From positions 1-59,123 of the forward strand of contig CADCGD010000037.1 in assembly GCA_902800925.1 (NCBI GenBank): a stretch of DNA of 59,123 bases. The letters run 5' to 3'. Origin of the DNA: an uncultured Bacteroidales bacterium (GTDB lineage: Bacteria > Bacteroidota > Bacteroidia > Bacteroidales > Bacteroidaceae). The translations under genes and the position numbers were made by a program. Within the stretch, counting starts at the first letter, position 1; every line of letters starts with the position of its first letter. A model generated the notes under the pieces. The model saw only the letters and a program-made list of their open reading frames with translations. It was not told the origin of the DNA and searched no databases. Shown piece by piece: positions 5,165 to 58,721 of the stretch.

Positions 5165-5275
5165 AGTGAAAAGTGAATAGTGAAAAGTGAAAAATTTGCT
5201 GCCGCCATTCTTTATTGTCTATATTTCTTGCTGTGCGGTAGCCAATTATTCACTTTTCACTATTCACTTTTCACT
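5165..5275. repeat. Inverted pair of four-heptad arrays
   Basis: Four 7-base units (AGTGAAA, AGTGAAT and variants) occupy 5165-5192. Four units of the same family occupy 5248-5275 in inverted orientation. The two 28-base arms match at 27 of 28 positions, with about 55 bases between them. The left arm continues into AATTTGCTGCCGCC, which is also found after the heptads in front of sufB (31875-31917). The element lies between lptF and the START-like gene. Confidence 0.85.
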
Positions 5276-5276
5276 A

Positions 5277-5298
5277 GCTTCAGCGCCAGCGCTGAAGC
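5277..5298. terminator. Strong hairpin after the START-like gene
   Basis: A near-perfect 22-base palindrome (arms GCTTCAGCGC and GCGCTGAAGC) lies three bases past the START-like stop codon. There is no T-run beyond it on the minus strand, so it may stabilise or pause the transcript rather than act as a classical intrinsic terminator. Confidence 0.5.
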
Positions 5299-5301
5299 GC
5301 C

Positions 5302-5703
5302 TTAGAGTCCGCTGACGCGGTGCAGGCGTTCTAGGTTGTCGTCCCAGATGCCACGCAGGTCAGCTGCTTCGTCGTCATCGGCAGCATAGTCGGTAATCAG
5401 CAGGCTCAGATGGCCCGTCTCTTTGCTCTGGGCTATGCGCAACTCCCAATAAGCCTCTGGGGTGTCCTCGTGGTAGTCCCACATCAGACGGATATGGTCG
5501 AACTTCTCCTTGTTTAGTATGCGTGACTGTTTGGTGTCGCGTTCAGTCCAGGGCTGACCCCATGTGAAGGTCATGACCTCATCGTTCTCTTCTACCACTT
5601 TGTCTGCCAGCCACATCTGCATGCCAGCAGCATTGCTAATCATATCCCATACTATCTTGATGGAGTTTGTTGCCAGGGGGTATTCAATCGTCAGTTTTTG
5701 CAT
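5302..5703 (-). CDS. START-like domain protein
   Basis: A soluble 133-residue protein with no signal peptide or membrane segment. The opening (MQKLTIEYPLATNSIKIVWDMISNAAGMQMWLADKV), the FTWGQPW segment, the DHIRLMWDY strand and the closing helix with GIWDDNLERLH match the START-like/SRPBCC fold proteins of Bacteroidota. The ligand is unknown. It stands alone, with its own promoter at 5746-5754, and ends at a hairpin and the inverted heptad element. Confidence 0.75.
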   Translation of the reverse strand: MQKLTIEYPLATNSIKIVWDMISNAAGMQMWLADKVVEENDEVMTFTWGQPWTERDTKQSRILNKEKFDHIRLMWDYHEDTPEAYWELRIAQSKETGHLSLLITDYAADDDEAADLRGIWDDNLERLHRVSGL

Positions 5704-5745
5704 GTTTTCATCTGTTTTAGGTCAATAATCCTACAGTATGACACT

Positions 5746-5754
5746 GCAAAAGTA
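5746..5754 (-). promoter_or_regulatory. -7 promoter element for the START-like gene
   Basis: Minus-strand TACTTTTGC (TAnnTTTG) followed by AG, about 45 bases upstream of the ATG at 5703. Confidence 0.7.
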
Positions 5755-5794
5755 CAAAAAAAAATAGAATTACGAAGATTTTTTCAGAAAAATT

Positions 5795-5824
5795 TTGGTA
5801 ATTCGAAATAAATGTCTACCTTTG
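5795..5824 (+). promoter_or_regulatory. -33/-7 promoter in front of the truncated tRNA gene
   Basis: TTTG at 5795-5798 and TACCTTTG at 5817-5824, separated by 18 bases, form a complete Bacteroides-type promoter. Transcription would start near 5829, about 17 bases before the tRNA-like sequence. No other TAnnTTTG lies between here and the DUF4421 start at 5950, so the same promoter may serve that gene. Confidence 0.75.
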
Positions 5825-5845
5825 CAGCCGCTTAACAGCAATGAT

Positions 5846-5870
5846 GGCGGGATAGCTCAGCTGGTTAGAG
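5846..5870 (+). pseudogene. Truncated tRNA gene (5' acceptor strand and D-arm only)
   Basis: The 25 bases read as the 5' end of a tRNA: a 7-base acceptor strand GGCGGGA, T8, A9, D-stem GCTC, D-loop AGCTGGTTA and the start of the second D-stem strand, GAG. The match stops there. No anticodon arm, T-arm or complementary TCCCGCC acceptor strand follows in the next 80 bases. A normal promoter precedes it and a terminator hairpin follows three bases later, so it looks like a tRNA gene with an internal deletion. The missing anticodon means its identity cannot be named. It could still yield a short RNA or act as a 5' leader of the DUF4421 gene. Confidence 0.7.
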
Positions 5871-5872
5871 TC

Positions 5873-5902
5873 AACGAGTTACAGAGATGTAGCTCGTTTT
5901 TG
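5873..5902 (+). terminator. Intrinsic terminator after the tRNA fragment
   Basis: The arms AACGAGTTAC and GTAGCTCGTT form a 10-bp stem (one G-T pair) with loop AGAGAT and a run of five T at 5897-5901. It is placed as expected for the end of a tRNA transcript. Confidence 0.7.
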
Positions 5903-5949
5903 CTTTTGGCTCGGTAAAAATCAAGTGAAGAGATGAAGTAATAATCATA

Positions 5950-7167: not shown

Positions 7168-7187
7168 AGGAGTATATTTGGCAAATC

Positions 7188-8603: not shown

Positions 8604-8632
8604 TTGGAATTAATTTGGTCAAATTTGCGGCT

Positions 8633-8641
8633 GCAAAGGTA
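8633..8641 (-). promoter_or_regulatory. -7 promoter element for the FadL-type gene
   Basis: Minus-strand TACCTTTGC followed by AG, about 30 bases before the ATG. A TTTG at 8658-8661 may be the upstream element, although the 16-base spacing is short. Confidence 0.7.
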
Positions 8642-8682
8642 CAAATTAATTTTCAAACAAACGAAAAAACAGCCAATTTTCT

Positions 8683-9849: not shown

Positions 9850-9865
9850 TTTTGCTTTTGCGGGT

Positions 9866-12807: not shown

Positions 12808-13797
12808 ATGGGATTTTTTAGTTTTGTCCAAGAGATAGCTATGGACCTTGGAACGGCTAACACAATTATTATCAGTGATGATAAGATTGTGGTTGACGAG
12901 CCGTCAGTAGTAGCCCTCGACCGCCATACCGACAAGATGATTGCCGTAGGTTCGCGGGCTAAGATGATGTATGAAAAGACACATGACAACATTCGTACCG
13001 TTCGCCCTTTGCGTGATGGTGTGATTGCTGATTTCTCTGCCTGTGAGCAGATGATGCGTGGTCTCATTAAGATGGTTCACACAGGTAGCCGTTTGTTTTC
13101 GCCCTCACTACGTATGGTGATTGGCGTGCCCTCAGGTTCTACTGAGGTGGAGTTGCGTGCCGTACGTGATAGTGCGGAGCATGCCGACGGCCGTGACGTA
13201 TATCTGATTTTCGAACCGATGGCTGCAGCTATTGGTATCGGTATTGACGTGGAGGCTCCTGAGGGTAACATGATTGTTGATATCGGTGGTGGTTCTACCG
13301 AGATTGCCGTTATCTCGTTGGGTGGTATCGTTAGCAACAATTCTATCCGTACCGCTGGTGACGACCTTACAGCTGATATCCAGGAATATATGTCTCGTCA
13401 GCACAACGTGAAGGTTTCTGAGCGTATGGCCGAGCGTATCAAGATTGCTGTAGGTTCTGCACTGACCGACCTGGGCGATGAGGCTCCTGAGGATTATGTC
13501 GTTCACGGTCCTAACCGTATCACAGCGCTGCCTATGGAGGTACCCGTATGCTATCAGGAGATTGCCCACTGTCTCGACAAGACCGTTGCCAAGATTGAGA
13601 ATGCTGTGCTCTCTGCTTTGGAGAATACTCCTCCTGAGCTGTATGCCGACATCGTGAAGAACGGTATCTGGTTGGCTGGCGGTGGTGCTCTGCTGCGTGG
13701 CTTGGATCGTCGTCTGGAGGCAAAGATCAATATTCCTTTCCATATCGCAGCGATAGTGGTTTGGGCTATTAGCCAACAGCTAACAGCTATAGTATGA
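12808..13797 (+). CDS. mreB: Rod shape-determining protein MreB with an aberrant C-terminus
   Basis: This is the bacterial actin that forms membrane-associated filaments guiding lateral wall synthesis. The actin-fold motifs are seen in order: phosphate-1 DLGTANT (13-19), VIGVPSG, EPMAAAIG, phosphate-2 DIGGGSTEIAVIS and the adenosine motif IWLAGGGALLRGL. The normal ending after NIPFHIA would be a segment like AEDPLxxVAxGTGxAL, the connect-2 helix. Here it is absent and replaced by 15 unrelated residues, AIVVWAISQQLTAIV. The last of those codons fall in a heptad array (13764-13791). The stop overlaps the mreC start as ATGA. There is no room for the missing helix in another frame, so a simple frameshift does not explain it. 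It may be a real deletion or an assembly error; whether the protein works is uncertain. Confidence 0.93.
   Translation: MGFFSFVQEIAMDLGTANTIIISDDKIVVDEPSVVALDRHTDKMIAVGSRAKMMYEKTHDNIRTVRPLRDGVIADFSACEQMMRGLIKMVHTGSRLFSPSLRMVIGVPSGSTEVELRAVRDSAEHADGRDVYLIFEPMAAAIGIGIDVEAPEGNMIVDIGGGSTEIAVISLGGIVSNNSIRTAGDDLTADIQEYMSRQHNVKVSERMAERIKIAVGSALTDLGDEAPEDYVVHGPNRITALPMEVPVCYQEIAHCLDKTVAKIENAVLSALENTPPELYADIVKNGIWLAGGGALLRGLDRRLEAKINIPFHIAAIVVWAISQQLTAIV
13764..13791 (+). repeat. Heptad array forming the mreB 3' end
   Basis: Four 7-base units, GGCTATT, AGCCAAC, AGCTAAC and AGCTATA, run directly up to the mreC start. They encode the last part of the abnormal MreB tail. Confidence 0.6.
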
Positions 13798-14663: not shown

Positions 14664-14677
14664 ACGGGCAGAGCCCT

Positions 14678-14719
14678 AGTGAAAAGTGAATAGTGAAAAG
14701 TGAATAGTGAATAGTGAAA
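14678..14719 (+). repeat. Six-unit heptad array between mreC and mreD
   Basis: Six exact 7-base units of the AGTGAAA/AGTGAAT type fill 42 of the 66 bases between the mreC stop and the mreD start. It is the same family as the arrays at 5165-5275 and 31875-31902. Confidence 0.9.
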
Positions 14720-14729
14720 AGAGATAAGG

Positions 14730-22153: not shown

Positions 22154-22181
22154 TTAAGTGTTAAGAATCAAGTGATAACAG
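22154..22181 (+). repeat. Heptad-like spacer before the DUF3108 gene
   Basis: Four consecutive 7-base units (TTAAGTG, TTAAGAA, TCAAGTG, ATAACAG) begin directly after the stop codon of the Ig-like gene and end two bases before the ATG at 22184. The units are less exact than in other arrays. Confidence 0.5.
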
Positions 22182-22996: not shown

Positions 22997-25900
22997 GTGG
23001 AGGTTTCCGAACTCTATGACCGTTGTGTAGAACTCGCAACGCAGGAACCATCGGTAGCGTCGTTGCGCTTCATGCACGAGACACTGGTGCTGGCCTGTGG
23101 TGAGGCGTTGCACGACACACGTCAGGGATTCGGTAATGTTTTCTCGCAGGTTGATTACCTCTGTAAGCGTCATGGCATTGCCATGCGTCACCGCATCGCC
23201 ATTCAGCAGATGCGTGTGCATTCCAATGGACGGAAACTTCAGGATGCTGACGACTGGCTCTATGATATCCGGGCACTGGCGCTGTTCATCTCCGCTGTCT
23301 TTAAGGTCGCTATTCCCCATGAACTTCTGACGCGGCTGCCTGCGGACTCTCGTCCGTTTGTTGTCGGACACCAGCCCAAGCGGCACGTCCTGCGTTGTGT
23401 AGTTACCAGTTGGGATGCCAGCTATATCTATGCCACCACCACAGAAGGTGCAGTATGTATTGACTATGTTGACTCTTTCGACATAGATACTGCTGGCGAC
23501 CTGCTTACGGAAGGTATGCAGCTGAACTTGCTAGACTGTACCATCGATGGTACTACCGTTACCCCTTCGCTCATCGTTGTCGAACCCGACTTTCTGATAG
23601 ATATCTCTGCGATAGCTGCTTGTTTCCAGGACTATGGGCACCATCCGCTTAGCTATCTGCTCAACCGGCTGAAGCCACGTGCCAATAGCCAGCAAATCCT
23701 GTTGGGTAACTTTGCGGGTACAGCACTCGACGACCTCATCAATCAGCCTGATGCATCCTATGGCGATAGTCTGCGTACGAGTTTTCGTGAACAGGCATTG
23801 CAGTTTTGTACCTGTGCACCTTTCGATGGGCAGCGTTTCAAAGAAGAGAGTCGTCAGCAGGTAACAAACATCCAAGAGGCTGTCGACGTCCTGTTTAGTG
23901 ACTACGACCGTGAGCATGCCCTACTGGAACCCTCGTTTGTTTGTGAACAGTTGGGATTGCAGGGACGTGTCGACCTGATGACTGACGATATGCGGCTGTT
24001 GGTGGAGCAGAAGTCTGGCAAGAACTGGAACATCGAGTGTGGCGCCTCTCAGCAGCATAAGGAAGACCACTATGTACAGTTATTATTATACTATGGTGTG
24101 CTACGGGCGAACTTTGATCTGCCTCCCGACAAGGTAGATATTCGCCTGCTCTACTCCAAATATCCTGCACGTCAGGGACTTCTCGTCGTCAACTATTATC
24201 AGCAACTCTTTCGTGATGCTATCCGATTGCGCAACTGTATTGTAGCTCAAGAAATCAGTATTGCTCGGAGAGGGTTCTCAACGATTATTCCACAGTTGCG
24301 AGCCGATCTGCTGCTGGAGAATCAGGAGAAACGTACATTCTTCGATAAGTATATCCGTGATGGAGTGAATCAGATGCTCCAGCCGTTCCACCAATTGTCT
24401 GCCGACGAGCGTGACTATGTGGAGCGGATGCTTACCTTCGTCTATCGTGAACAGCTGGCACAGAAAGTGGGTGTGCAGGAAGGGCTGGGTGGCGCTACTA
24501 GCGACCTATGGAACATGCCACTTAGCGAGAAACTGGAGACGGGCAACATCCTGATGGGAACCATTACAGAAAAGTCGCCCGAAACCGTTGTACTCTCTGT
24601 AGATACTGCCGACGTGCTTCCCAATTTCCGTAGGGGCGATATGGTCTATCTTTATCGTTATGAGCAGAACCCAGATGTGCGTAATAGCATCTTGTATAAA
24701 GGAACCCTCGTTAGTCTTTCCGACCAAGAGACCATCATCCGCCTAAACGAACGTCAGCAGAATCCGCATCTCTTTGGCCAGGGATACTATGCTGTGGAAC
24801 ACGCCTCGTCAGACGTGGGTAGTACCTCCGCTCTGCGTGCCGTTTTCTCTTTCTGTTCAGCATCACCCAGTAAGCGTGCTTTATTGTTAGGCAAGCGCCC
24901 TCCTCGGAAAGACAGCACCATTACGTTGTCGCATGCCTATCATCCACACTACGACGAGATTATTCTCAAGGCGATGCAGGCTCAGGACTATTTCTTGCTG
25001 CAAGGTCCTCCAGGAACAGGCAAGACGTCTATGGCCCTCCGCTTCCTGGTAGAAGAGGAACTATCCTCTCACCCCTCACCCCTCACCTCTCACCTCTTAT
25101 TGAGCGCCTACACCCATCGTGCTGTCGATGAGATATGTGATATGCTAGTCAATGCGGGACAAGATTTCCTACGCATTGGCAACGAGGACTCCTGCGATCC
25201 ACGTTTTGCAGACCATTTGCTTGACCATCGGATGGGCGAACGGCCACAGCTCAGCGATATCCGTCAGCAACTCCAACAGATGCGTATCATCGTCGCTACG
25301 ACATCCACGCTACAGGCACGTCCTTTCCTCTTCCAGCTGAAACATTTCTCGCTGTGTATCGTCGATGAGGCTTCGCAGATTCTGGAACCAAGCATCATTG
25401 GCATACTCTTGTCAGAACAAGTGGACCGCTTTATCCTCGTTGGTGATCACAAACAACTTCCTGCCGTTGTTGTACAGCCTGACGATGAACCACGTCTTCA
25501 CGACTGTCGCCGTTCGCTTTTCGAACGTCTGCTACAGCAGGAGCGACAGGCAGGACGTACCGACTTCGTGGGACTGTTGCGCTTTCAGGGACGCATGCAT
25601 CCCGATATAGCACAGTTCCCCAATAATTTCTTCTATCATCGTGAACAGTTACAGCCCGTTCCCTTGCCTCATCAGAAGGAAGCTGCACTTGACTATGGTC
25701 AGCCTTCAGAAGATGCCCTCGACGACCTGCTGAAGCAACATCGCGTGCTTTTCTTCCCCAGTGATAGTTCTCTCACTTCTGGTATCACCCCTCACCCCTC
25801 ACCTCTCACCTCTGATAAAGTCAACGAGGCAGAGGCACATATTGTTGCCGACTTCCTGCGACGTCTCTATCGCCAGTATGGTGCTGACCATTTTGATCCG

Positions 25901-26245
25901 AACCGTACAGTTGGGGTCATCGTACCCTATCGTAACCAGATAGCGATGATACGGCGTGAAATAGCGCAATTGGGTATCCCCCAACTGGATCAGGTCAGTA
26001 TAGATACTGTTGAACGCTATCAAGGTAGTCAGCGCGATGTCATCATCTATTCGTTTACCGTTCAGCGTCCTTATCAACTTGACTTCCTGACGGCAAACTG
26101 CTTCCAGGAGGATGGATACAATATAGACCGCAAACTCAATGTCGCCATGACACGTGCACGCAAGCAACTTATCATGACGGGAAATGCAGCATTGTTGAAG
26201 CGTAATAAGATTTTTTCTGAACTTATCGCACGCTATTCCATATAA
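22997..26245 (+). CDS. DNA2-like superfamily 1 helicase with PD-(D/E)xK nuclease domain
   Basis: This 1082-residue protein starts with GTG six bases after the DUF3108 stop. An N-terminal region of unknown fold precedes a Cas4/RecB-like nuclease domain (about 295-400) with GRVDLMTDDMRLLVEQKSG, where an Asp and the ExK pair form the expected site. A DNA2/NAM7-type helicase follows: Walker A GPPGTGKT (670-677), THRAVDEIC, Walker B IVDEASQ (about 788), LVGDHKQLPAV, and the second RecA lobe with VGVIVPYRNQ, DTVERYQGSQRDVIIYS and NVAMTRARKQL. No Cys cluster like that of eukaryotic Dna2 was found. Two in-frame loops (about 692-702 and 929-940) are encoded by the same heptad repeat. It probably acts in DNA end processing or repair; the exact role is unknown. 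Confidence 0.85.
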   Translation: MEVSELYDRCVELATQEPSVASLRFMHETLVLACGEALHDTRQGFGNVFSQVDYLCKRHGIAMRHRIAIQQMRVHSNGRKLQDADDWLYDIRALALFISAVFKVAIPHELLTRLPADSRPFVVGHQPKRHVLRCVVTSWDASYIYATTTEGAVCIDYVDSFDIDTAGDLLTEGMQLNLLDCTIDGTTVTPSLIVVEPDFLIDISAIAACFQDYGHHPLSYLLNRLKPRANSQQILLGNFAGTALDDLINQPDASYGDSLRTSFREQALQFCTCAPFDGQRFKEESRQQVTNIQEAVDVLFSDYDREHALLEPSFVCEQLGLQGRVDLMTDDMRLLVEQKSGKNWNIECGASQQHKEDHYVQLLLYYGVLRANFDLPPDKVDIRLLYSKYPARQGLLVVNYYQQLFRDAIRLRNCIVAQEISIARRGFSTIIPQLRADLLLENQEKRTFFDKYIRDGVNQMLQPFHQLSADERDYVERMLTFVYREQLAQKVGVQEGLGGATSDLWNMPLSEKLETGNILMGTITEKSPETVVLSVDTADVLPNFRRGDMVYLYRYEQNPDVRNSILYKGTLVSLSDQETIIRLNERQQNPHLFGQGYYAVEHASSDVGSTSALRAVFSFCSASPSKRALLLGKRPPRKDSTITLSHAYHPHYDEIILKAMQAQDYFLLQGPPGTGKTSMALRFLVEEELSSHPSPLTSHLLLSAYTHRAVDEICDMLVNAGQDFLRIGNEDSCDPRFADHLLDHRMGERPQLSDIRQQLQQMRIIVATTSTLQARPFLFQLKHFSLCIVDEASQILEPSIIGILLSEQVDRFILVGDHKQLPAVVVQPDDEPRLHDCRRSLFERLLQQERQAGRTDFVGLLRFQGRMHPDIAQFPNNFFYHREQLQPVPLPHQKEAALDYGQPSEDALDDLLKQHRVLFFPSDSSLTSGITPHPSPLTSDKVNEAEAHIVADFLRRLYRQYGADHFDPNRTVGVIVPYRNQIAMIRREIAQLGIPQLDQVSIDTVERYQGSQRDVIIYSFTVQRPYQLDFLTANCFQEDGYNIDRKLNVAMTRARKQLIMTGNAALLKRNKIFSELIARYSI
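25069..25096 (+). repeat. Four-heptad array inside the helicase gene, copy 1
   Basis: Four 7-base units, TCACCCC twice then TCACCTC twice, lie in the coding sequence between Walker A and motif Ia. They encode the loop SHPSPLTSHL. An identical 28-base copy lies at 25785-25812. Confidence 0.9.
25785..25812 (+). repeat. Four-heptad array inside the helicase gene, copy 2
   Basis: This is the same 28 bases as 25069-25096, in a different reading frame relative to the units. Because 7 is one more than a multiple of 3, the array is read in all three frames and both copies encode HPSPLTS. It lies just before KVNEAEAHIVADF, at the start of the second helicase lobe. Confidence 0.9.
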
Positions 26246-27209: not shown

Positions 27210-27680
27210 ATGATAGACAAAAACGTCGTTAAGACAGCAGTTGAGGAGTGGCTCGAGAAGGGCGACTATTATTTGGTAGATGTAGAGATGACTGGCGATG
27301 ACCGCATCGTCATTGAGATTGACCATGCCGATGGTGTATGGATTGAAGATTGTGCTGAGCTGAGCCGTTTCTTACAGGAGAAGCTTGGCGAGGAGCTTGG
27401 CGATTATGAATTAGAGGTAGGCTCTGCCGGTATCGGTCAGCCTTTTAAGGTATTGCAGCAGTACAAGAACCATATTGGCAAGGAGGTAGAGGTATTACAG
27501 AACGATGGTATCAAACTTCAGGGTGTGCTGAAGGCTGCCAACGACGACAATACGTTCGTGGTTACTGTTAAGGAAAAGCAGCACCAGGAAGGCAAGAAGC
27601 GCCCTGTGCTGGTAGAGGTCGACAAGACCTACAAGACCAGTGACGTGAAGTACTGTAAGTACCTGTTGAACTTTAAATGA
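27210..27680 (+). CDS. rimP: Ribosome maturation factor RimP
   Basis: This 156-residue protein helps assemble the 30S ribosomal subunit. Family blocks are YYLVDVEMTGDDRIVIEIDHADGVWIEDCAELSRFLQEKL in the N-terminal domain and YELEVGSAGIGQPFKVLQQYKNHIGKEVEV at the junction with the SH3-like C-terminal domain. The usual family motif is VSSPGxxRPL; here it reads VGSAGIGQPF, a variant I recall from other Bacteroidota. It heads the classical rimP-nusA-infB order, separated from nusA by a heptad/hairpin spacer. Confidence 0.95.
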   Translation: MIDKNVVKTAVEEWLEKGDYYLVDVEMTGDDRIVIEIDHADGVWIEDCAELSRFLQEKLGEELGDYELEVGSAGIGQPFKVLQQYKNHIGKEVEVLQNDGIKLQGVLKAANDDNTFVVTVKEKQHQEGKKRPVLVEVDKTYKTSDVKYCKYLLNFK

Positions 27681-27797
27681 GGAATGTGGAATGGTCGGCT
27701 TTGCCGATAATCAATGAAAAATTGAGAATTCTACATTAAAACATCGCAGCGAAGCGAGAATAATTCAACATTCATAATTCAAAAAACAAAATTCAAA
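27680..27797 (+). repeat. Composite heptad-hairpin element, copy A (rimP-nusA spacer)
   Basis: GGAATG-type heptads start at the rimP stop codon. Next come a 13-base hairpin (27695-27707, arms TCGGC/GCCGA), a TCAATGA segment, a 21-base sequence at 27741-27761 containing CGCAGCGAAGCG, and a run of ATTCAAN heptads to 27797. The same order of parts, in the opposite orientation, makes up 55411-55548; the 21-base segment is identical there. Confidence 0.75.
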
Positions 27798-27808
27798 AAT
27801 AATATATT

Positions 27809-29065
27809 ATGGCAGTAAAGAATGTGAAGGGCCCATCAATGATTGAGACCTTTCAGGAATTTAAAGAGACAAAGAACATTGACCGTACTACTTTGGTAAG
27901 CGTGCTGGAGGAAAGCTTCCGCAACGTGATCGCCAAGATGTTCGGTTCTGACGAGAACTACGACGTCATTGTGAACCCTGATAAGGGTGACTTTGAGATT
28001 CACCGTAACCGTATCGTGGTTGCCGATGGCGAGGTGCAGGACGAGAACAAGGAGATCTCACTCTCTGAGGCCCAGAAGATTGAGCCTGACTACGAGGTTG
28101 GTGAAGAGGTGTCTGAAGAGGTGGACTTCCAGAAGTTTGGCCGTCGTGCCATCTTGAATCTGCGTCAGACACTGGCTTCTAAGATTCTGGAACTGGAGCA
28201 CGACTCTCTGTACCAGAAGTACAAGGACAAGGTTGGTCAGGTGGTTAGTGCTGAGGTTTACCAGATGTGGAAGCGTGAGGTACTACTCATCGATGATGAG
28301 GGTAACGAGTTGCACCTGCCGAAGCAGGAGCAGATTCCTGCCGACAACTATCGCAAGGGTGAGACAGTTCGTGCTATCGTCAAGGAGGTGCAGAACGAAA
28401 ATAACAATCCTCGCATCATTCTTTCACGTACCAGCAATCAGTTTCTGGAGCGACTGCTCGAGGCTGAGGTTCCTGAGATTCAGGATGGTTTGATTACCAT
28501 TCGTCGCATTGCCCGTATGCCGGGTGAGCGTGCTAAGATAGCTGTTGAGAGCTATGACGACCGCATCGATCCAGTAGGTGCTTGCGTAGGTGTCAAGGGT
28601 AGCCGCGTTCATGGCATTGTCCGTGAGATGTGCAACGAGAACATCGACGTCATCAACTACTCTAGCAACACCCAGTTGTTCATTCAGCGTGCTTTGGCAC
28701 CTGCTAAGGTTACCAGCATCACACTGAATCCTGAAGAGCACAAGGCCGAGGTTTATCTGCAGCCTGAGGAGGTCTCTTTGGCAATCGGTAAGGGTGGTCT
28801 GAATATTAAGCTCGCCTCCATGTTGACAGAGTACACTATCGATGTCTTCCGTGTTGTCAACGAAGGTGAGGCCGACGAGGATATCTACCTCGATGAGTTC
28901 TCTGACGAGATCGACCAGTGGATTATCGATTCTATCAAGGCTATCGGTTTGGATACCGCCAAGGCTGTGTTGAACGCTCCCCGTGAGATGCTGATTGAGA
29001 AGGCTGACCTCGAGGAGGAGACCGTTGACCACGTCATTGAGGTACTGAAGGCCGAGTTCGAATAA
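27809..29065 (+). CDS. nusA: Transcription termination/antitermination factor NusA
   Basis: This 418-residue protein binds RNA polymerase and modulates pausing, termination and antitermination. The N-terminal polymerase-binding domain is followed by the S1 domain (about 140-200) and KH1/KH2, with VGACVGVKGSRVHGIVREM and EEVSLAIGKGGLNIKLAS carrying the GxxG loops. It lacks the two C-terminal acidic repeats of E. coli NusA, giving a length normal for Bacteroidota. It lies between rimP and infB with repeat-filled spacers on both sides. Confidence 0.96.
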   Translation: MAVKNVKGPSMIETFQEFKETKNIDRTTLVSVLEESFRNVIAKMFGSDENYDVIVNPDKGDFEIHRNRIVVADGEVQDENKEISLSEAQKIEPDYEVGEEVSEEVDFQKFGRRAILNLRQTLASKILELEHDSLYQKYKDKVGQVVSAEVYQMWKREVLLIDDEGNELHLPKQEQIPADNYRKGETVRAIVKEVQNENNNPRIILSRTSNQFLERLLEAEVPEIQDGLITIRRIARMPGERAKIAVESYDDRIDPVGACVGVKGSRVHGIVREMCNENIDVINYSSNTQLFIQRALAPAKVTSITLNPEEHKAEVYLQPEEVSLAIGKGGLNIKLASMLTEYTIDVFRVVNEGEADEDIYLDEFSDEIDQWIIDSIKAIGLDTAKAVLNAPREMLIEKADLEEETVDHVIEVLKAEFE

Positions 29066-29101
29066 ATAGTAAATTGTAAATAGTCAAATTGTAAATTGAT
29101 A
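29066..29101 (+). repeat. Heptad/octad array in the nusA-infB spacer
   Basis: Units ATAGTAA and ATTGTAA, with one 8-base unit ATAGTCAA, fill the whole spacer from the nusA stop to the infB start. The same unit family, including an octad ending in CAA, fills the pdxJ/DJ-1 spacer at 42298-42327. Confidence 0.8.
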
Positions 29102-31874: not shown

Positions 31875-31902
31875 AGTGAAGAGTGAAGAGTGAAAAGTGA
31901 AG
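31875..31902 (+). repeat. Four-heptad array overlapping the sufB start
   Basis: Four AGTGAAG/AGTGAAA units start at the base after the infB stop and run through the sufB GTG at 31890. The sequence continues into AATTTGCTTCCGC, matching the repeat flank at 5193-5206. The repeat therefore supplies the start codon and first codons of sufB. Confidence 0.85.
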
Positions 31903-33368
31903 AATTTGCTTCCGCTCAGAATGCAAGCAATGAGTTTGTACGTCAGGTAGCTGAACAGAAGTACGAGTTTGGATTCACTACTGATGTACATACTGAAATC
32001 ATAGAGAAAGGGCTGAACGAGGATGTCGTTCGGCTCATCTCTGCTAAGAAGGGGGAACCCGAGTGGATGCTCGAGTTCCGCCTCAAGGCATTCCGCTACT
32101 GGAAGGAGCAGACGGAGCCCACATGGGGCCACGTCCACGTGCCCCCTATCGACTATCAGGCCATCAGCTACTACGCCGATCCCACCGCGAAGAGTGTGCC
32201 CAGCAGTTCTGCTGCTGGGATAGATCCCGAACTGGAGAAAACCTTCGACAAGCTGGGCATCCCCTTGGAGGAACGCTTGGCCTTGAGCGGTAACACCGCC
32301 GTTGACGCCATCATGGATAGCGTCTCAGTGAAGACCACTTTCAAGGAGAAGCTGCGTGAGAAGGGGGTTATCTTCTGCTCTATTGGCGAGGCCATCAAGG
32401 AGCATGGCGATCTGGTTCGTCAGTACTTAGGTACGGTGGTTCCTTATCGCGATAACTTCTTTGCGGCCCTCAACAGCGCCGTGTTCAGCGACGGTTCATT
32501 TGTCTATATCCCCAAGGGAGTTCGGTGCCCCATGGAGCTCAGTTCGTATTTCCGCATCAACGCAAGGAATACGGGTCAGTTTGAACGTACCCTCATCATT
32601 GCTGACGACGATTCCTACGTCAGCTACTTAGAGGGCTGTACTGCCCCGATGCGCGATGAGAACCAGCTGCATGCCGCCATCGTTGAGATTATCGTGATGA
32701 ACCGTGCCGAGGTAAAATACTCGACCGTACAGAACTGGTATCCTGGCGACGAGAACGGTAAGGGCGGTGTGCTCAATCTCGTCACCAAGCGTGGCGACCT
32801 GCGTGGTGTTGACTCGAAGTTGTCGTGGACTCAGGTAGAGACCGGCTCTGCTATCACTTGGAAATACCCATCGTGCATCCTGCGTGGTGACAATAGTGTG
32901 GCGGAATTCTATTCTGTCGCCGTTACCAACAACTATCAGGAGGCGGATACGGGTACCAAGATGATACATATTGGTAAGAATACCAAGAGCACTATCATCT
33001 CAAAGGGTATCTCGGCCGGTCACTCACAGAACTCGTATCGTGGACTGGTACGTGCTGCCTCTACCGCAGACAACGCCCGTAACTACTCCAGCTGCGATTC
33101 GCTGCTGTTGGGCTCTGATTGTGGTGCGCATACCTTCCCCTATATGGATGTCCACAACGACACAGCCGTGTTTGAGCACGAGGCTACCACCTCGAAAATT
33201 TCGGAAGACCAGCTCTTCTATTGCAACCAGCGCGGCATCCCCACCGAGCAGGCTGTAGGCCTTATCGTCAACGGTTATGCCAAGGAGGTGCTGCAAAAGC
33301 TGCCCATGGAGTTTGCCGTTGAGGCCCAGAAACTGCTCAGCGTCTCGTTAGAAGGAACGGTCGGCTAA
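31890..33368 (+). CDS. sufB: Fe-S cluster assembly scaffold protein SufB
   Basis: This 492-residue protein forms the SufBC2D scaffold on which iron-sulfur clusters are built. Diagnostic blocks are YGFTT-like [86 protein letters not shown] and [26 protein letters not shown]. No ATG is available at the N-terminus; the first in-frame start after the stop at 31884-31886 is GTG at 31890, inside the heptad array, so about the first ten residues ([10 protein letters not shown]) are repeat-derived. The usual neighbours sufC, sufD and sufS are absent; a purine permease follows 13 bases later. Confidence 0.95.
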
Positions 33369-33381: not shown

Positions 33382-34692
33382 ATGATGTTACAAAAACTTT
33401 TTGGATTCGATCCCTCCACCATGACTTTACGTAAGGAGGTGATCGGTGGTATTACCACCTTCCTGACGATGGCTTATATCTTAGCCGTCAACCCCAGCAT
33501 CCTTTCGGCTACCGGCATGGATGCTGGTGCTGTGTTTACCACTACTTGTATCTCGGCAGTTGTCGCCACCTTGGTAATGGCTGTCTATGCCAAGTTGCCC
33601 TTTGCTTTGGCGCCTGGTATGGGTTTGAATGCATTCTTTGCATTCACCGTAGTGCTTACCATGGGTTACACCTGGCAGTTTGCACTGACAGCCGTAATGA
33701 TAGAGGGACTGATATTCATCCTGCTAACTATTACGGGTTTGCGCCAACATATTGTTAACGCCATCCCTTTGATATTGCGCCGAGCTATCAGTCCTGGTAT
33801 CGGATTGTTTATCGCCTTTGTAGGCCTGAAGGGTGCAGGTATCGTTAGTGCCTCTGAGGCCACATTCATCACCTTAGGTAATCTGCACGACCCCGCTGTG
33901 CTGCTGGCCATCTTCGGTATTGTCCTGACTGCTGTTATGTTAGTAAGAAAGGTTACAGGCGCATTGCTTATTGGTATCCTAGTGACTACTATCGTAGGCA
34001 TTCCTCTGGGTGTTACCAACTATACGGGCATTATGTCTACGCCTCCCTCTATCAGCCCCATCTTCTGGCAGTTTGAGTGGTATAACATCTTTACGGTGGA
34101 TATGGTGGTAGTAGTACTCACCTTCCTGTTTATCGATATGTTCGACACCATTGGAACCTTGATAGGTGTATCTAACCGTGCAGGCATGGTGGATGATAAC
34201 GGTAATGTGAAGAATCTGAATCAGGCCTTTATGGCCGATGCTATCGGTACTACCGTTGGCGCTATGTTGGGAACATCTACAGTAACTACTTATGTTGAGA
34301 GTGCATCGGGCGTAAACGTTGGTGGTCGCTCTGGACTCACCAGTCTTACCACAGCCATCTGTTTTGCAGTAGCATTGCTCTTCGCACCGCTGTTCCTGGC
34401 TATCCCTGCTCAGGCCACAGCAGCAGCGCTCATTCTTGTGGGTGTGATGATGATGCACGACATCCGCAAGGTCGATTTCAGCGATTACGTGACAGCTATA
34501 CCTTGTTTCGTATGTATCGTGCTGATGCCACTTACCTATAGCATATCAGACGGTATCCTGATGGGTGTCATCTCATACGTGCTGATTCACCTGTTATCGG
34601 GTACCCTCAAAGATAAGGACGAGCGTAACAACATCAACTGGGCCACTATCCTACTGGCCGTATTGTTTGTTTGCCGCTACGCATTCCTGTAA
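33382..34692 (+). CDS. NCS2/AzgA-type purine (guanine/hypoxanthine) permease
   Basis: This 436-residue membrane protein has about 12-14 hydrophobic segments and belongs to the AzgA/PbuG branch of the NCS2 nucleobase transporters, which import purines with protons. Typical motifs are EVIGGITTFLTMAYILAVNP, LPFALAPGMGLNAFFAFTVV, RRAISPGIGLFIAFVGLKGAGIV, FLFIDMFDTIGTLIGVSNRAG and the GTSTVTTYVESASGV substrate-site segment. The start could also be the ATG one codon later. It lies 13 bases after sufB, so it is probably cotranscribed, and is followed by a strong terminator. Confidence 0.92.
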   Translation: MMLQKLFGFDPSTMTLRKEVIGGITTFLTMAYILAVNPSILSATGMDAGAVFTTTCISAVVATLVMAVYAKLPFALAPGMGLNAFFAFTVVLTMGYTWQFALTAVMIEGLIFILLTITGLRQHIVNAIPLILRRAISPGIGLFIAFVGLKGAGIVSASEATFITLGNLHDPAVLLAIFGIVLTAVMLVRKVTGALLIGILVTTIVGIPLGVTNYTGIMSTPPSISPIFWQFEWYNIFTVDMVVVVLTFLFIDMFDTIGTLIGVSNRAGMVDDNGNVKNLNQAFMADAIGTTVGAMLGTSTVTTYVESASGVNVGGRSGLTSLTTAICFAVALLFAPLFLAIPAQATAAALILVGVMMMHDIRKVDFSDYVTAIPCFVCIVLMPLTYSISDGILMGVISYVLIHLLSGTLKDKDERNNINWATILLAVLFVCRYAFL

Positions 34693-34808: not shown

Positions 34809-35056
34809 AGCTGTAGCGAGTGATGAGATAGGCTATCCCAGTGACGAGACAGGCTATCCCAGTGATGAGACAGCTGTAGCGGTGGAAAAGTGGTAGGGCT
34901 TTTGCAAAAGTGGTACGGCTTTTCAGAAAGTCGTACCACTTTTTCGTGTATTAGCTGTTCCCGCGTGCAGGAACAGCTGTCCCGCTGCTGGGACAAGCTA
35001 ATACAGCGATGGGATGAGCTAATACGGAGATGAGACAGGCTGATACAGAGGCGTGG
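34809..35056. repeat. Interrupted array of about nine 20-22-nt phased units
   Basis: Units begin with AGCT or AGGCT at 34809, 34830, 34851, 34872, then 34953, 34975, 34996, 35017 and 35037. The units at 34830 and 34851 differ at one of 21 positions. Several end in GTGATGAGA-like sequence. The array is broken by the hairpin at 34906-34944. There are no unique spacers between units, so it is not a CRISPR array. Confidence 0.7.
34906..34944. terminator. Terminator-like 17-bp hairpin
   Basis: AAAAGTGGTACG pairs with CGTACCACTTTT and the stem extends inward by five more pairs (one G-T) to a 4-base loop. Five T follow on the plus strand and A-runs flank it, so it could stop transcription in both directions. 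A direct copy of the left arm lies just before, at about 34886-34903. Confidence 0.6.
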
Positions 35057-35172
35057 TGCGCCGTCTCGCGCCCGTGCGCTCGCCTGCGCCGCGCGCGAGA
35101 AGTTTTCGAAAAATTGCTTTCACGTTTCACAGTCGCCTGTATGCTGGGCTTCAAGGCCATTTCCTTGTTTTT

Positions 35173-42297: not shown

Positions 42298-42327
42298 TTA
42301 CTATTTGACAATTTACGATTTTACAAT
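42298..42327 (-). repeat. Heptad/octad array between pdxJ and the DJ-1 gene
   Basis: On the minus strand, units of the type ATTGTAA, ATCGTAA and ATAGTAA, with an octad ATTGTCAA, fill the whole spacer between the pdxJ stop and the DJ-1 ATG. It is the same family as 29066-29101. Confidence 0.75.
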
Positions 42328-55397: not shown

Positions 55398-55410
55398 ATT
55401 CTAAAAATGT

Positions 55411-55548
55411 TGAGTGTGGAATGTTGAATGTTGAATGATTCTCGCTTCGCTGCGATGTTTGAGTGTTGAATGAAAAATTCCACATCGTTCATTGACAATC
55501 GCTGCAAGCGAACATTCTTCATTCCTCATTCCACATTCCTAATTCTTA
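55411..55548 (-). repeat. Composite heptad-hairpin element, copy B
   Basis: Read on the minus strand from the AICAR transformylase stop, it has GGAATG-type heptads (five 7-base units at 55514-55548), a 13-base hairpin (55499-55511), a TCAATGAA segment, the 21-base sequence at 55438-55458 identical to 27741-27761, and heptads to 55411. The order of parts matches copy A at 27680-27797. Both begin at a gene's stop codon on its coding strand. Confidence 0.75.
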
Positions 55549-56733
55549 ATGATGGAATAAACGAACACCCGTGAATGCCATAGCAATACCGTACTTGTCA
55601 CAGGTCATGATGACATGGTCGTCACGGACAGAGCCGCCAGCCTGGGCAATGAATTCTACACCGCTCTTGTGGGCACGCTCAATGTTGTCGCCGAAGGGGA
55701 AGAAAGCATCAGAGCCTAAGGCTACCTTAGTGTTCTTGGCTATCCACTCCTTCTTCTCAGCCATGGTCAGCACCTCAGGCTGCTCGGTGAAGAACTGCTG
55801 CCAAGCACCGTCGCGCAGCACATCGTCGTGCTCGTCCTCAGAGATGTAGACATCGATGGTGTTGTCGCGGTCAGCACGACGGATACCCTCCTTGAAGGGC
55901 AGTGCCATCACCTTCGGATGCTGGCGCAACCACCAGATGTCAGCCTTGTTACCTGCCAAACGAGTACAGTGGATGCGGCTCTGCTGACCAGCACCAATAC
56001 CGATAGCCTGTCCGTCCTTCACGTAGCAGACACTGTTCGACTGGGTATATTTCAATGTAATCAATGCGATGATCAGGTCGCGCTTAGCCTCGGCTGTGAA
56101 CGTCTTATTCTGGGTGGGGATATTCTCGAAGAGGGCAGGGTCATCGAGCTTGATCTCGTTACGGCCCTGTTCAAAGGTCACACCAAAGCACTGCTTGGTC
56201 TCAATGGGAGCGGGCTTGTAGCTGGGGTCAATCTTGATGACGTTATACGTCCCCTTACGTTTGTCCTTCAGTATCTCGATGGCTTCAGCGGTGTAGTCGG
56301 GTGCAATGACGCCGTCGCTCACCTCGCGCTTCAAGAGTAGGGCAGTGGTGGCGTCGCAGGTGTCGCTGAGTGCCACGAAGTCACCATAGCTCGACATGCG
56401 GTCAGCACCACGGGCACGGGCGTAGGCACAGGCAATAGCACTGTCGTCCAGTCCTTTGATGTCGTCCACGAAGTAGATTTTCTTCAGCGTGTCGCTCAGG
56501 GGCAGACCAACAGCGGCACCGGCAGGACTTACGTGCTTGAACGATGCTGCAGCGGGCAGACCCGTAGCTGCTTTCAGCTCCTTCACCAACTGCCAGGCGT
56601 TCAGTGCGTCAAGGAAGTTGATGTAGCCAGGGCGGCCGTTAATAACTTCGATGGGTAACTCGCCCTCCGTCATAAAGATGCGTGAGGGCTTCTGGTTGGG
56701 ATTGCATCCGTACTTCAGTGCTAATTCTTTCAT
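55546..56733 (-). CDS. purH: Stand-alone AICAR transformylase (PurH C-terminal function)
   Basis: This 395-residue enzyme formylates AICAR to FAICAR using 10-formyl-tetrahydrofolate. It starts MKELALKYGCNPNQKPSRIF, a block characteristic of AICAR transformylases. Catalytic Lys-His is seen in AAASFKHVSPAGAAVG. Further motifs are SSYGDFVALSDTCD, GIGAGQQSRIHC and SDAFFPFGDNIERA. At about 395 residues it belongs to the single-domain class known from Firmicutes and Bacteroidota, not to a simply split PurH. It completes the pathway with the IMP cyclohydrolase at 12176-12769. Some annotations call it purH; the symbol is functional only. Confidence 0.93.
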   Translation of the reverse strand: MKELALKYGCNPNQKPSRIFMTEGELPIEVINGRPGYINFLDALNAWQLVKELKAATGLPAAASFKHVSPAGAAVGLPLSDTLKKIYFVDDIKGLDDSAIACAYARARGADRMSSYGDFVALSDTCDATTALLLKREVSDGVIAPDYTAEAIEILKDKRKGTYNVIKIDPSYKPAPIETKQCFGVTFEQGRNEIKLDDPALFENIPTQNKTFTAEAKRDLIIALITLKYTQSNSVCYVKDGQAIGIGAGQQSRIHCTRLAGNKADIWWLRQHPKVMALPFKEGIRRADRDNTIDVYISEDEHDDVLRDGAWQQFFTEQPEVLTMAEKKEWIAKNTKVALGSDAFFPFGDNIERAHKSGVEFIAQAGGSVRDDHVIMTCDKYGIAMAFTGVRLFHH

Positions 56734-56761
56734 TTTGATAACATTCTTTTAGAATCTGGTT

Positions 56762-56770
56762 GCAAAGTTA
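56762..56770 (-). promoter_or_regulatory. -7 promoter element for the AICAR transformylase gene
   Basis: Minus-strand TAACTTTGC followed by AA, about 29 bases before the ATG at 56733. Confidence 0.7.
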
Positions 56771-56797
56771 CGGATTTTTTTTCAAATACCACCAAGA

Positions 56798-58357
56798 TTA
56801 GAAAGGAAATCCTCCGTCTGAGGGCATATTTGGAAAACCTCCACCAGGGAAGCCGCCTTGGGGCATTCCTGGGAAGCTGTTGAACTGCATCTTTTTCTCG
56901 ACGGGCTCTTGGATGCGGGGTTCCCAGTCTTTGTCGAAGCGGTCAATGTTCTTGTCGAGGAAGGCGAGACGGTCTGCCAGCCATTTCTTCAATACCTTCA
57001 TCTCCTCGTCGAACGAACTGACGCGATAGTTGGCAAACATGGCTACGGGGTTGAACTGAGAACCGCCTTCGCCGTTCTCCAGCAACTCTGGGTACTCCTT
57101 GAAGTGACGGTCTATAGCCTGTGACACGAGTTTGGCGTGACGATCAATATATTCATACAGGTGCTTCGTGCTGAGGATGCCTTTGCGTAGTTCCTGATAG
57201 CGGGTCTTCACAGCCTTCCTGAAGGCCGGATCCTGCAACAGACGCTGCCAGAAGGCTGGGGTAGGGTTTGTATTGCCGCCCTCGAAGCACCATGCCTCGA
57301 TATTGTTGGCATTGCAGAAGTTACAGTTGCCATAGGCAAGGTTGTAGTCCCAAACGGGTCCAGCATGTATCTTGCCACCAGTGCCGTCCGCATGCAATTT
57401 CTCCTTATAGAAATACGCACTGCGCTTGTAGCCGTCGGCATTCAGACTGAGTTCCGTGTGGATGAAATAATCTACGAACGAGGGTACGTCGATATAGTGA
57501 GCGTACCCCTTCTCATAATCCATAAAGTAATCACTCTGGATGACGAGTTCCATAGAATCGACAAAGTTCTGGATATAGGCAAACTGCTCGGGTTGCAGGT
57601 TCTTTTTCTTTGGATAGATGCACGACCAGGTAATCTGACTCGTCATGATGCCATCGCCGATGCCTGGCACCTTCGATGTAAAGGTCGCATCGTCTTCATT
57701 ATAGGTGTCGATGCGCAGGATATAGCCACCCGTGAGGTCACGGCCCTTGACGTCCGACTTCTTTAGTTTGCTGACGTTGACACGTTCTGCGCCCCGCTTG
57801 ATAGCCTCGCAGAAGATGTAGATGCCGTGGTACTCGCCGTCCATCACCAGTTCCACCATCGTGGTGCGAGGACCCCAGTGCCCCATCTCGCGCCATAACT
57901 CAAAAGCCAGTGGGTCGCGCAGCATCGACACATCGTTGTAGGGTGCCAGCAGTACCCAATCGCTGTGAGCAGGCATCCCCAGCAGGGCGACATCTCGTTC
58001 CTTGCCGTTGTCTTCGCGCGTTTCAATGGTATATTTCTTCTGGTTGAAACTCAGCGAACTGTTACCCCTCAGTTTGATGCCGATAGGGCCGTCATAGCCT
58101 TCGCATTTCATGTGGGCGGTCACCTTCTTCTGGGCATTCAGGGCTGTCTCTGTGGTGATATAGATGATGGGCAGGTTCGACTTGAGATTATCTGCTTTGG
58201 TGTGCTTCACTGGTGGGAACATACTGCTCATATCGGGCATGCCGCCACCAAAGCCACCAAAACCGCCGAATCCTCCAAACTGGGCACATGCCTCCATCGA
58301 TGTCATGAGGAGTGCTGCCAATAATAACTGTAATTTACGGTTGTTTTTCTTTTTCAT
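56798..58357 (-). CDS. CotH kinase family protein, exported
   Basis: This 519-residue protein has a signal peptide (LQLLLAALLMTSMEACAQ). The core (about 60-470) is a CotH-type kinase with IGIKLRGNSSLSFNQKKYTIET, the LLAPYNDVSMLRDPLAFEL block, EYHGIYIFCEAIKRGAERVNVSKL and the metal-binding GPVWDYNLAYGN. CotH of Bacillus spores is a protein kinase; secreted bacterial homologues are largely unstudied. Gly/Phe-rich low-complexity tracts bracket the core (FGGFGGFGGFGGGMP near the N-terminus and GGFPGGGFP near the C-terminus). No clear TAnnTTTG precedes it. Confidence 0.85.
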   Translation of the reverse strand: MKKKNNRKLQLLLAALLMTSMEACAQFGGFGGFGGFGGGMPDMSSMFPPVKHTKADNLKSNLPIIYITTETALNAQKKVTAHMKCEGYDGPIGIKLRGNSSLSFNQKKYTIETREDNGKERDVALLGMPAHSDWVLLAPYNDVSMLRDPLAFELWREMGHWGPRTTMVELVMDGEYHGIYIFCEAIKRGAERVNVSKLKKSDVKGRDLTGGYILRIDTYNEDDATFTSKVPGIGDGIMTSQITWSCIYPKKKNLQPEQFAYIQNFVDSMELVIQSDYFMDYEKGYAHYIDVPSFVDYFIHTELSLNADGYKRSAYFYKEKLHADGTGGKIHAGPVWDYNLAYGNCNFCNANNIEAWCFEGGNTNPTPAFWQRLLQDPAFRKAVKTRYQELRKGILSTKHLYEYIDRHAKLVSQAIDRHFKEYPELLENGEGGSQFNPVAMFANYRVSSFDEEMKVLKKWLADRLAFLDKNIDRFDKDWEPRIQEPVEKKMQFNSFPGMPQGGFPGGGFPNMPSDGGFPF

Positions 58358-58422
58358 ACTATACTTTTAGATGACGAACAGGCTATTTGGTTTAAGGCCG
58401 GACACAAAAATTCAAAATAATT

Positions 58423-58450
58423 TTCAATTATCAATTGTCAATAATCAATT
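58423..58450. repeat. Heptad array upstream of a small gene
   Basis: Four 7-base units with core TCAAT (TTCAATT, ATCAATT, GTCAATA, ATCAATT) occupy the place where the -33 region of the promoter at 58457-58464 should be. Confidence 0.75.
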
Positions 58451-58456
58451 ATTTCG

Positions 58457-58464
58457 TAATTTTG
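58457..58464 (+). promoter_or_regulatory. -7 promoter element for the small gene at 58473
   Basis: TAATTTTG followed by CACC, ending eight bases before the ATG at 58473, so the leader is almost absent. The longer ORF from 58371 starts upstream of the promoter and is rejected. Confidence 0.7.
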
Positions 58465-58472
58465 CACCCGCT

Positions 58473-58721
58473 ATGGAGAAAAAGAGATATGCGCTGCGTA
58501 AACTGTTAGAGGCGGTAGAGAAAGAACTGTTGAAGAAACCCAACCAAAAGACGCTCGATAGGCTGTCGCTGTTGGCAGGCTTTCAGGATTGGGAGTCGTT
58601 CAAGGAAACCGTGCATGGCGACTTAGGTGGCGAAACCATTTATGGCGGACACCAGGAGATTAAAGATGAAAGATTAAAGATGAAAGATGGAAATAATAAA
58701 AAAGAGACACCTCATCAGTGA
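58473..58721 (+). CDS. Small conserved-looking hypothetical protein
   Basis: This 82-residue soluble, charged protein (MEKKRYALRKLLEAVEKELL, then TLDRLSLLAGFQDWESFKET) is probably helical. It is not recognised as a named family. The last third of the chain, including IKDERLKMKDG, is translated from a five-unit heptad array (58657-58691). Its stop codon lies in the loop of the terminator at 58699-58735. Both ends therefore seem to be set by repeat or terminator sequence. Confidence 0.6.
   Translation: MEKKRYALRKLLEAVEKELLKKPNQKTLDRLSLLAGFQDWESFKETVHGDLGGETIYGGHQEIKDERLKMKDGNNKKETPHQ
58657..58691 (+). repeat. Five-unit heptad array inside a coding sequence
   Basis: Five exact 7-base units (AGATTAA, AGATGAA, AGATTAA, AGATGAA, AGATGGA) encode the C-terminal tail of the small protein. 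Confidence 0.85.

Follow-up and report, generated by a model that had tools for sequence, protein, structure and literature searches.

Heptanucleotide repeats are known from cyanobacteria, where they are called STRRs. Several other systems come close to the elements reported here. Rickettsia palindromic elements (RPEs; Ogata et al., 2000, 2002, as relayed in passages of PMC10969869) are palindromes of about 150 bp, belonging to several families, that enter unrelated metabolic genes in frame with a recurring peptide. MacGregor (2015), in the passages of PMC4679880 devoted to them, describes intergenic direct repeats of the heptamer TAACTGA that lie near start codons in the sense orientation and carry stops in all frames, and mentions heptamer repeats near start codons in Beggiatoaceae, cyanobacteria and a few Bacteroidetes. 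A Bacteroidales element, the BrickBuilt miniature inverted-repeat transposable element (MITE) of Porphyromonas gingivalis, is presented in PMC4596501 as a 23-base tandem unit inside an inverted-repeat element that is always intergenic. In this work we analysed a stretch of 59,123 nucleotides (contig CADCGD010000037.1 of assembly GCA_902800925.1, hereafter the window) from an uncultured Bacteroidales bacterium, in which an earlier note had described 7-base tandem arrays filling spacers. That reading is partly supported; new to it is that many of the arrays are arms of palindromic elements which enter coding sequences and signal peptides. In our best reading these heptamer-armed palindromes resemble RPEs and are partly co-opted. 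We establish their architecture and copy number, their turnover at orthologous sites and their presence in frame in intact enzyme genes.

The assembly that contains the window comprises 2.72 Mb in 66 contigs, the window being contig 37. The genes recognised in the window (mreB, mreC, PBP2, nusA and infB) and their relatives lead us to place the source, as far as such a judgement goes, in Prevotella in the broad sense. The relatives found are mainly metagenome-assembled genomes (MAGs) of rumen Prevotella, plus a few other assemblies, and the window MreB is 100% identical over the matched 314 residues to that of records RUG14378, RUG062 and MN60.

Period 7 and the architecture of the elements

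Period enrichment was measured on 859 kb, or 32% of the 2.72 Mb, made up of the window and 40 further stretches of 20 kb each (the own sample below), with a run-scoring scan whose threshold was 14 for the comparison of periods, 10 for the array set, 8 for unit counts and pairs and, leniently, 7 for core adjacency. At 14 or above, 95 segments have period 7, against 0, 13 and 8 for periods 6, 8 and 9, and one order-3 Markov shuffle per sequence gave no such segment at any period from 2 to 30. The period-7 enrichment is real and not due to chance. In the whole genome, AGTGAANAGTGAANAGTGAA has 99 matches versus 12 for its reversed control. Two of the conditions that the earlier note named as refuting did not hold, period 7 being enriched over neighbouring periods in this 32% of the genome and arrays being present in related genomes; its "exactly seven bases" is true of the period only, since units such as AGTGAAN often have a degenerate position. 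This commonest unit forms 47 runs of at least three units in the whole genome (9 of three, 30 of four, 4 of five, 2 of six and 2 of seven), and in the own sample 339, 11, 4, 14, 1 and 1 runs of one to six units. Slippage alone would not yield such run lengths, because they show a second peak at four units. At threshold 8, 71 of 176 arrays have about four units and 44 about five.

The 142 arrays found at threshold 10 lie in co-directional spacers (61), divergent spacers (15), convergent spacers (10), called coding sequence (53) or at edges (3), with densities of 12.0 per 10 kb in co-directional spacers versus 0.70 in called coding sequence. The earlier claim that arrays lie between co-directional genes is thus borne out, but "spacers" is too narrow a term for the 53 arrays in called coding sequence, two of which, at 25069 and 25785, are read in frame inside the open reading frame (ORF) 22997-26245. 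Genes were called with a home-made procedure (ORF length plus codon log-odds), so that start codons are approximate and some "coding" arrays are possibly miscalled.

Some arrays have recurring neighbours. The core TTTGCTNCCGC stands directly 3' of an array (threshold 7) in 13 of its 15 occurrences in the own sample and, equally, in 13 of 15 in loci of other genomes, while none of 30 scrambles of this core lies beside an array in the own sample. The variant ATTGCTNCCGC follows an array in 7/8 and 1/6 cases (own sample and other loci), and variants starting GTTGCT- and CTTGCT- do so in 0/2 and 0/10. The whole genome holds 65 copies of WTTGCTNCCGC versus 10 of its reverse. A GC stem-loop ends at the array in 20 of 46 leader arrays, versus 9.3% of 561 control windows drawn from array-free spacers; with a stem of at least four pairs the figures are 16 of 46 and 3.3%. 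Array pairs within 200 bp (threshold 8) are mostly inverted (15, versus 5 direct, three of which come from one tandem locus, and 5 other). Inverted arms are mostly 15-100 bp apart, and arms also occur singly. The resulting palindromes, inverted arrays around inverted cores, measure roughly 110-130 bp. Three elements chosen for folding as DNA gave -37 kcal/mol (z -11.8; window 5164-5275), -64.9 kcal/mol (z -18.4; an element of the relative G034) and -30.1 kcal/mol (z -7.4; the element in the asparagine synthetase gene, AsnB). Little structure is seen in the half-elements at 14664 (z -2.6) and 31872 (z -0.3). Rfam, searched at the gathering score in the window and four loci, returned one tRNA only.

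A unit of 7 shifts the reading frame at each repeat. Since 7 is not divisible by 3, a perfect array gives the identical cyclic heptapeptide in all three frames, and therefore a stop in the unit closes all frames while its absence opens all of them. In the commonest families the C-poor strand has stops in all three frames and the opposite strand is open in all three, and a heptamer palindrome reads "stops, middle, open repeat" in both orientations.

Leaders, enzyme loops and signal peptides

Leader arrays (n = 46) lie between co-directional genes, from 14 nt inside to 31 nt before the called start codon. Stops are more numerous on the sense strand in 38, on the antisense strand in 5 and tied in 3; 40 of the 46 have stops in all three frames, versus 31 of 187 control leaders and 24% of mono-nucleotide shuffles. 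They contain 3.6% C where the control leaders have 14.7%, and they fold less stably (-0.52 versus -1.51 kcal/mol). Divergent spacers show no bias in stop orientation (7 to 7). The nusA/infB and mreC/mreD junctions of relatives carry other units (AGTGAAA, AGAGGTA, AGTTGAC, AAAGTTC, ATTGTAA, TGCTTAA and others) or none; at orthologous junction loci matched on the minus strand, arrays are read on the other strand. By eye, 9-base units also occur at some junctions, and elements with 8-base units stand at positions of heptamer ones in loci L353, L396 and L400.

Paired elements of the GTGTAGA family occupy open frames of the own genome in AsnB, CarA, an RND-type transporter, a TPR-like protein, CobT, CobU, a GH2-type enzyme and ArgS, and a further one lies in RecG of the relative L184. 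Host identities come from Pfam (AsnB, CobT, CobU and RecG) or from PDB matches plus NCBIfam (ArgS and CarA); the transporter, the TPR-like protein and the GH2-type enzyme were named by reading of their sequence. Nine inverted core pairs were found in the own genome, eight of them in open frames of at least 205 amino acids that continue through the element and the ninth (contig C58) in a doubtful frame; CarA, with a longer middle, provides a tenth. A recurring insert peptide of the ECRTESVEFATA...AVANSTLYTLNSKL type, with the pattern SVECRTESVEFATA-x6..9-AVANSTLYTLNSKL, is found in nine host proteins; it has no NCBIfam match, although whether NCBIfam holds an RPE model was not checked. The loops of coding copies measure 25, 22 or 19 nt, except in CarA (82 nt), where according to a PDB alignment the two arms flank a seemingly native segment. 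The heptamer that would bring TAG into frame is altered, to ACTGAG, ACGGAG or GTGGAG. In G034, two of the ten pairs read lie in long frames running through the element and the others look intergenic. The RecG site has 114 nt in L184 versus 36 native nt in L182, L186, L183 and the window.

In ArgS, one and the same loop carries differing repeat families across species. Among 30 orthologs fetched, not all of which were classified, it contains GTGTAGA units in L329 and L330, AGTGAAG units in L334 and L348 (degenerate in L347), an 8-base unit in L353, GGAGCAA in L333, a TCACCTC-type repeat in L335 and, by peptide, in L338 and L343, and a GC-rich palindrome in L337 and, by peptide, in L351; it has no evident repeat in L336 and L344. 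A separate GC-rich repeat family is read in frame (SPNPSPKGEG-type peptides, CCCCCGAGGGGG) or lies around the start codon, its hosts being L054 (AsnB), L337 and L351 (ArgS) and L408 (BamA).

Coding arrays also gather at N-termini: in the own sample 16 of 53 lie within 120 nt of the called start, versus 5.7 expected if they were uniform, and 12 of these 16 resemble signal-peptide cores, as assessed by eye without SignalP. Examples are GldN (MKKFIKRIMNNRWMVVALLFTIHCSLFTSEAFAQ), a BamA-type protein, OmpH/Skp, PorU and a DUF6089 protein. The BamA-type protein has four POTRA matches and a match to the BamA model OM_YaeT at E 2e-79 that does not reach the curated cut-off of this model. In all five, the upstream array and the signal-peptide array are inverted partners with the start codon between them, so that, judged by eye from the sequence, the arrays act as leader and encode the putative signal-peptide core.

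The same arrangement was followed in 30 BamA orthologs, 27 of them readable: arrays of period 7 stand on both sides in 10 of the 27 and on at least one side in 15, and two have period 8 only. Families vary by species (TAATTGA, AATGAAG, AGTGAAT, AAATAAC, the 8-base AAAAGGTA and others), and the BamA of L384, L401, L404, L405 and L409 has an ordinary-looking signal peptide and no array. Ungapped complementarity between leader and signal-peptide region averages 14.3 within species versus 7.7 across species, a value reached by none of 20,000 permutations, and 6.7 (maximum 9) for a shifted control region. A thermodynamic duplex score also placed the mean of own pairs below all 10,000 permutations, but because GC-rich stretches dominate this score the own partner was best in only 2 of 27 rows, and the ungapped score was used instead. 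At the level of sequence comparison, BamA's two arms change together between species.

Distribution and sites in the window

At least three AGTGAAN units in tandem occur in 17 of 36 genomes of the same genus (own included) versus 3 of 24 others, and AGTGAANANTTTGCTNCCGC in 12 of the 36 and in none of the 24, which come from other families, with no match for the reversed control in any. The ArgS insert peptide was matched in 40 of 249 genus genomes. Arrays per 100 kb number 14.3 in the own genome, 10.0 in G079, 21.0 in G031 (biased upward, since the presence of AGTGAAN arrays on its contigs was known beforehand) and 2.0 in G034, as against 0.7, 0.7 and 0 in three single-contig relatives; the stretches of G079 and G034 are on contigs chosen for nusA or mreC rather than at random, and G034 has 171 AGTGAAN matches genome-wide yet only 2.0 arrays per 100 kb in the stretches read. 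The paired core is found in none of 392 other genomes of an order sample; this sample holds only two further members of the genus, and the result therefore points to absence outside the genus only.

Nine of the 14 period-7 sites listed in the earlier note are clear, and the remaining five are weak, imperfect, of another period or not found. The scan at score 10 recovered 5165-5275, 14678, 25069, 25785, 31875, 55411, 58423 and 58657, and Tandem Repeats Finder (TRF; run on the window with a score cut-off of 30) alone recovered 29066 (score 49). The array at 13764 is weak (TRF score 31), 27680-27797 consists of short imperfect pieces, TRF gives period 8/15 with indels at 42298, and neither TRF at score 30 nor the scan at score 10 found the arrays at 22154 and 43051. 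The note's statement that arrays of the same family recur at distant loci is confirmed.

A complete palindromic element, to which no strand is assigned, lies between two minus-strand genes at 5164-5275. Four AGTGAAN units at one end and four TTCACTN units at the other are separated by 55 bp, with the core TTTGCTGCCGC at 5195-5205 and GCGGTAGC on the far side. The second inverted pair of the window (55408-55550, likewise unstranded) is made of TTGAATG and CATTCCT arrays. On the plus strand, the weak AGCTAAC array (13764-13791) is at the mreB end and mreC start, a junction where the relative L171 has a GCTAACN array and L172 and L173 have AGTGAA-type arrays. At the mreC/mreD junction (14664-14728, plus strand), the stem-loop GGGCAGAGCCC is directly followed by six to seven AGTGAAN units that end 1 nt before the mreD start. 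The plus-strand gene at 22997-26245 encodes a helicase (AAA_11/AAA_12 with a PD-(D/E)XK match) and hosts two TCACCYC arrays in frame: the CTCACCC/CTCACCT array at 25068-25097, read as SSHPSPLTSHL shortly after the GPPGTGKT motif, and a second copy of this 28-bp array at 25785-25813, read as ITPHPSPLTS. Upstream of nusA, the plus-strand spacer holds a degenerate composite (27676-27798) of GGAATG units, the hairpin GTCGGCTTTGCCGAT and TTCAANA units; a 21-bp stretch, AACATCGCAGCGAAGCGAGAA, is common, as reverse complement, to the composites at 27700-27790 and 55430-55460. The ATNGTAA array of the nusA/infB junction (29063-29101, plus strand) starts in the nusA stop codon, and a half-element (31875-31915, plus strand) has four AGTGAAR units right after the infB stop, then the core TTTGCTTCCGC at 31905-31915. 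An AATTGAN array (58419-58449, unstranded), by a promoter-like TAnnTTTGCA motif, and an AGATKAA array (58657-58689, plus strand) share a doubtful, probably spurious ORF of 116 amino acids.

Elsewhere, ATAATTC- and AATTGAG-type arrays stand directly upstream of promoter-like TAnnTTTGC boxes (L041, L043, L052, L055, L063 and others), mostly in divergent spacers. Tandem repeats of a longer unit, about 18-21 bp, occur in the window at 34819-35090, behind a gene ending at 34692, and in locus L049 (8960-9100) a 49-bp block composed of GCATTCGC, a TAAATGA-type array and TTGCTACCGC is repeated three times in tandem.

Readings of the arrays and known systems

We think it likely that small palindromic elements of modular build form a multi-copy family that is proliferating in rumen-type Prevotella, and that the arrays are their arms. 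An arm comprises some four heptamers; a short GC stem-loop often stands before it and, in some families, TTTGCTNCCGC behind it. Arms stand singly or as inverted pairs. Copies would spread by copying or insertion, units would change through mutation plus homogenisation, and selection would retain copies that do no harm, as at junctions and in loops, or that are of use, as in leaders and signal peptides. A bolder proposal, which we hold tentatively and at somewhat less than even odds, is that the heptamer-armed palindrome is a portable "stop-start-signal peptide" cassette, independent of frame and orientation. Its first arm would stop upstream translation in all frames and supply a C-poor leader, the start codon would lie in the middle, and the second arm would encode a hydrophobic repeat usable, whatever the frame, as the core of a Sec signal peptide. 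Prevotella lineages would repeatedly re-create or swap such cassettes on essential export genes (bamA across species and, in the own genome, also skp/ompH, porU and gldN), with related palindromes threaded through the loops of core enzymes.

Several observations weigh against the proliferating family. Simple copying does not account for a core that is shared by several unit families, and in RecG the element replaces native sequence rather than being a clean insertion. Neither a transposase, nor target-site duplications, nor a mobilising partner was found, the partner search being limited to Y1_Tnp and target-site duplications not having been sought systematically. The ArgS insert peptide is found in 6 of 107 high-quality genomes versus 34 of 142 others, most genomes that bear elements being of lower quality. 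As for leaders, mono-nucleotide shuffles of the arrays have more sense than antisense stops in 78% of cases, and control leaders also lean to the sense strand (108 to 48); the stop-bearing orientation is mostly explained by the base composition of the arrays, which favours it, and leader arrays are not less structured than their own shuffles. The N-terminal enrichment is barely present in other loci (5 of 35 versus 3.5 expected, 3 of them signal-like). In BamA, only 5 of 27 rows have the own partner as the strict best, since families are shared between species, and phylogeny was left uncorrected.

Other explanations can be opposed to the proliferating family. If the arrays were neutral microsatellites, slippage would favour 7-base units and spacer arrays would survive for lack of counter-selection. 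Period 7 does dominate, periods 8 and 9 being less frequent, the way in which units change at orthologous arrays resembles homogenisation, and according to passages of PMC4679880 Mrazek et al. (2007) found heptamers to be the commonest long simple repeats in most genomes and proposed slippage. However, unit number peaks at 4 instead of declining, one hexamer recurs as runs of at least three at 47 places, arrays share a 3' core and adjacent arrays are mostly inverted, so we regard this explanation as unlikely. The Bacteroidetes phylum is largely devoid of Shine-Dalgarno sequences. The arrays could be cis-regulatory, either as tandem sites for an RNA- or DNA-binding protein or as unstructured landing pads for ribosomes, and the 46 leader arrays, with their position close to start codons (-14 to 31 nt), their scarcity of C and their weak folding, are in keeping with this, as is the similar position of the TAACTGA repeats in the passages of PMC4679880. 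Orthologous junctions with other units or none argue against such a function, as do the 53 arrays called inside coding sequence, and it leaves palindromes and in-frame inserts unexplained; we find it quite unlikely.

Movement of repetitive extragenic palindromic (REP) sequences, of bacterial interspersed mosaic elements (BIMEs) or of MITEs by a known transposase, such as the REP-associated tyrosine transposase (RAYT, Y1), would be another explanation. GTAG REPs, in the passages of PMC3733652 concerned, also form inverted dimers 20-100 bp apart, have intragenic copies and give stops to flanking ORFs, and Y1_Tnp, the only transposase family searched for, is present in 14 of 19 element- or array-rich genomes versus 8 of 17 others. 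Nevertheless, at E <= 0.001 Y1_Tnp is not matched in G032 (97%) or G035 (94%), two near-complete genomes that bear elements, and the inverted repeats that flank the own Y1 gene are different ones. Y1 transposase presence tracks the elements loosely at best, without the clean association expected of a mobiliser, and this explanation is very unlikely. The own Y1_Tnp (RAYT-like) gene (L031 4035-4397, G000:C1; a 263-amino-acid open frame) lies between inverted copies of GGACTCAGGGGG... and apparently belongs with them to a separate REP-type system. Lastly, element-bearing genomes are mostly MAGs or of lower quality, which would fit an artefact of metagenome assembly; yet the same sites hold arrays in independent assemblies, named records without a MAG label (MN60, Leyella stercorea An906 and Xylanibacter rodentium PROD) also have arrays, as does G079 (99% complete, 20 contigs), and reading frames remain open, which makes an artefact extremely improbable.

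Heptamer repeats and in-frame palindromes are thus already known, separately. We found no report, in the open-licence literature, of heptamer-armed palindromes, of family swapping at fixed sites, of signal peptides made from them or of such elements in Prevotella. The proliferating family ties the puzzle of heptanucleotide pile-up in some bacteria to a mobile-looking palindrome, adds another group of bacteria to those whose proteins are invaded in frame by palindromes and suggests a possible route for signal peptides to arise from repeats; the period-7 arithmetic makes testable predictions on frame independence.

The earlier statement that no counterpart had been described was too strong, since the intergenic TAACTGA heptamers near start codons treated in the passages of PMC4679880 extend to five Bacteroidetes. 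Like them, the arrays of this work include intergenic ones in sense orientation just upstream of starts (38 of 46, where composition alone gives 78%); unlike them, they use many units instead of one, and the passages of that paper mention neither a palindromic core nor signal peptides. The direct repeat itself, TAACTGATAACTGA, has no occurrence in the 859-kb sample. With the heptanucleotide long simple sequence repeats of Mrazek et al. (2007, via passages of PMC4679880) and cyanobacterial STRRs they share a preference for 7-base periods, above chance here, but degenerate units, the four-unit peak, cores and inverted pairs set them apart; three STRR units are absent from the same sample. BrickBuilt likewise combines a tandem repeat with an inverted-repeat element in Bacteroidales, but according to PMC4596501 its unit has 23 bases and its copies are always intergenic. 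GTAG REPs and BIMEs share inverted dimers, intergenic and some intragenic copies and the supply of stop codons; the passages of PMC3733652 mention no heptamer arms, and the RAYT link is loose at best here. From RPEs, to which we liken them by description and not by sequence, our elements differ in having heptamer-array arms with the TTTGCTNCCGC core, single arms, leader/signal-peptide cassettes and a Bacteroidota host, but a short palindrome, insertion in frame in protein-coding genes and a recurring encoded peptide are all encountered here as they are in Rickettsia.

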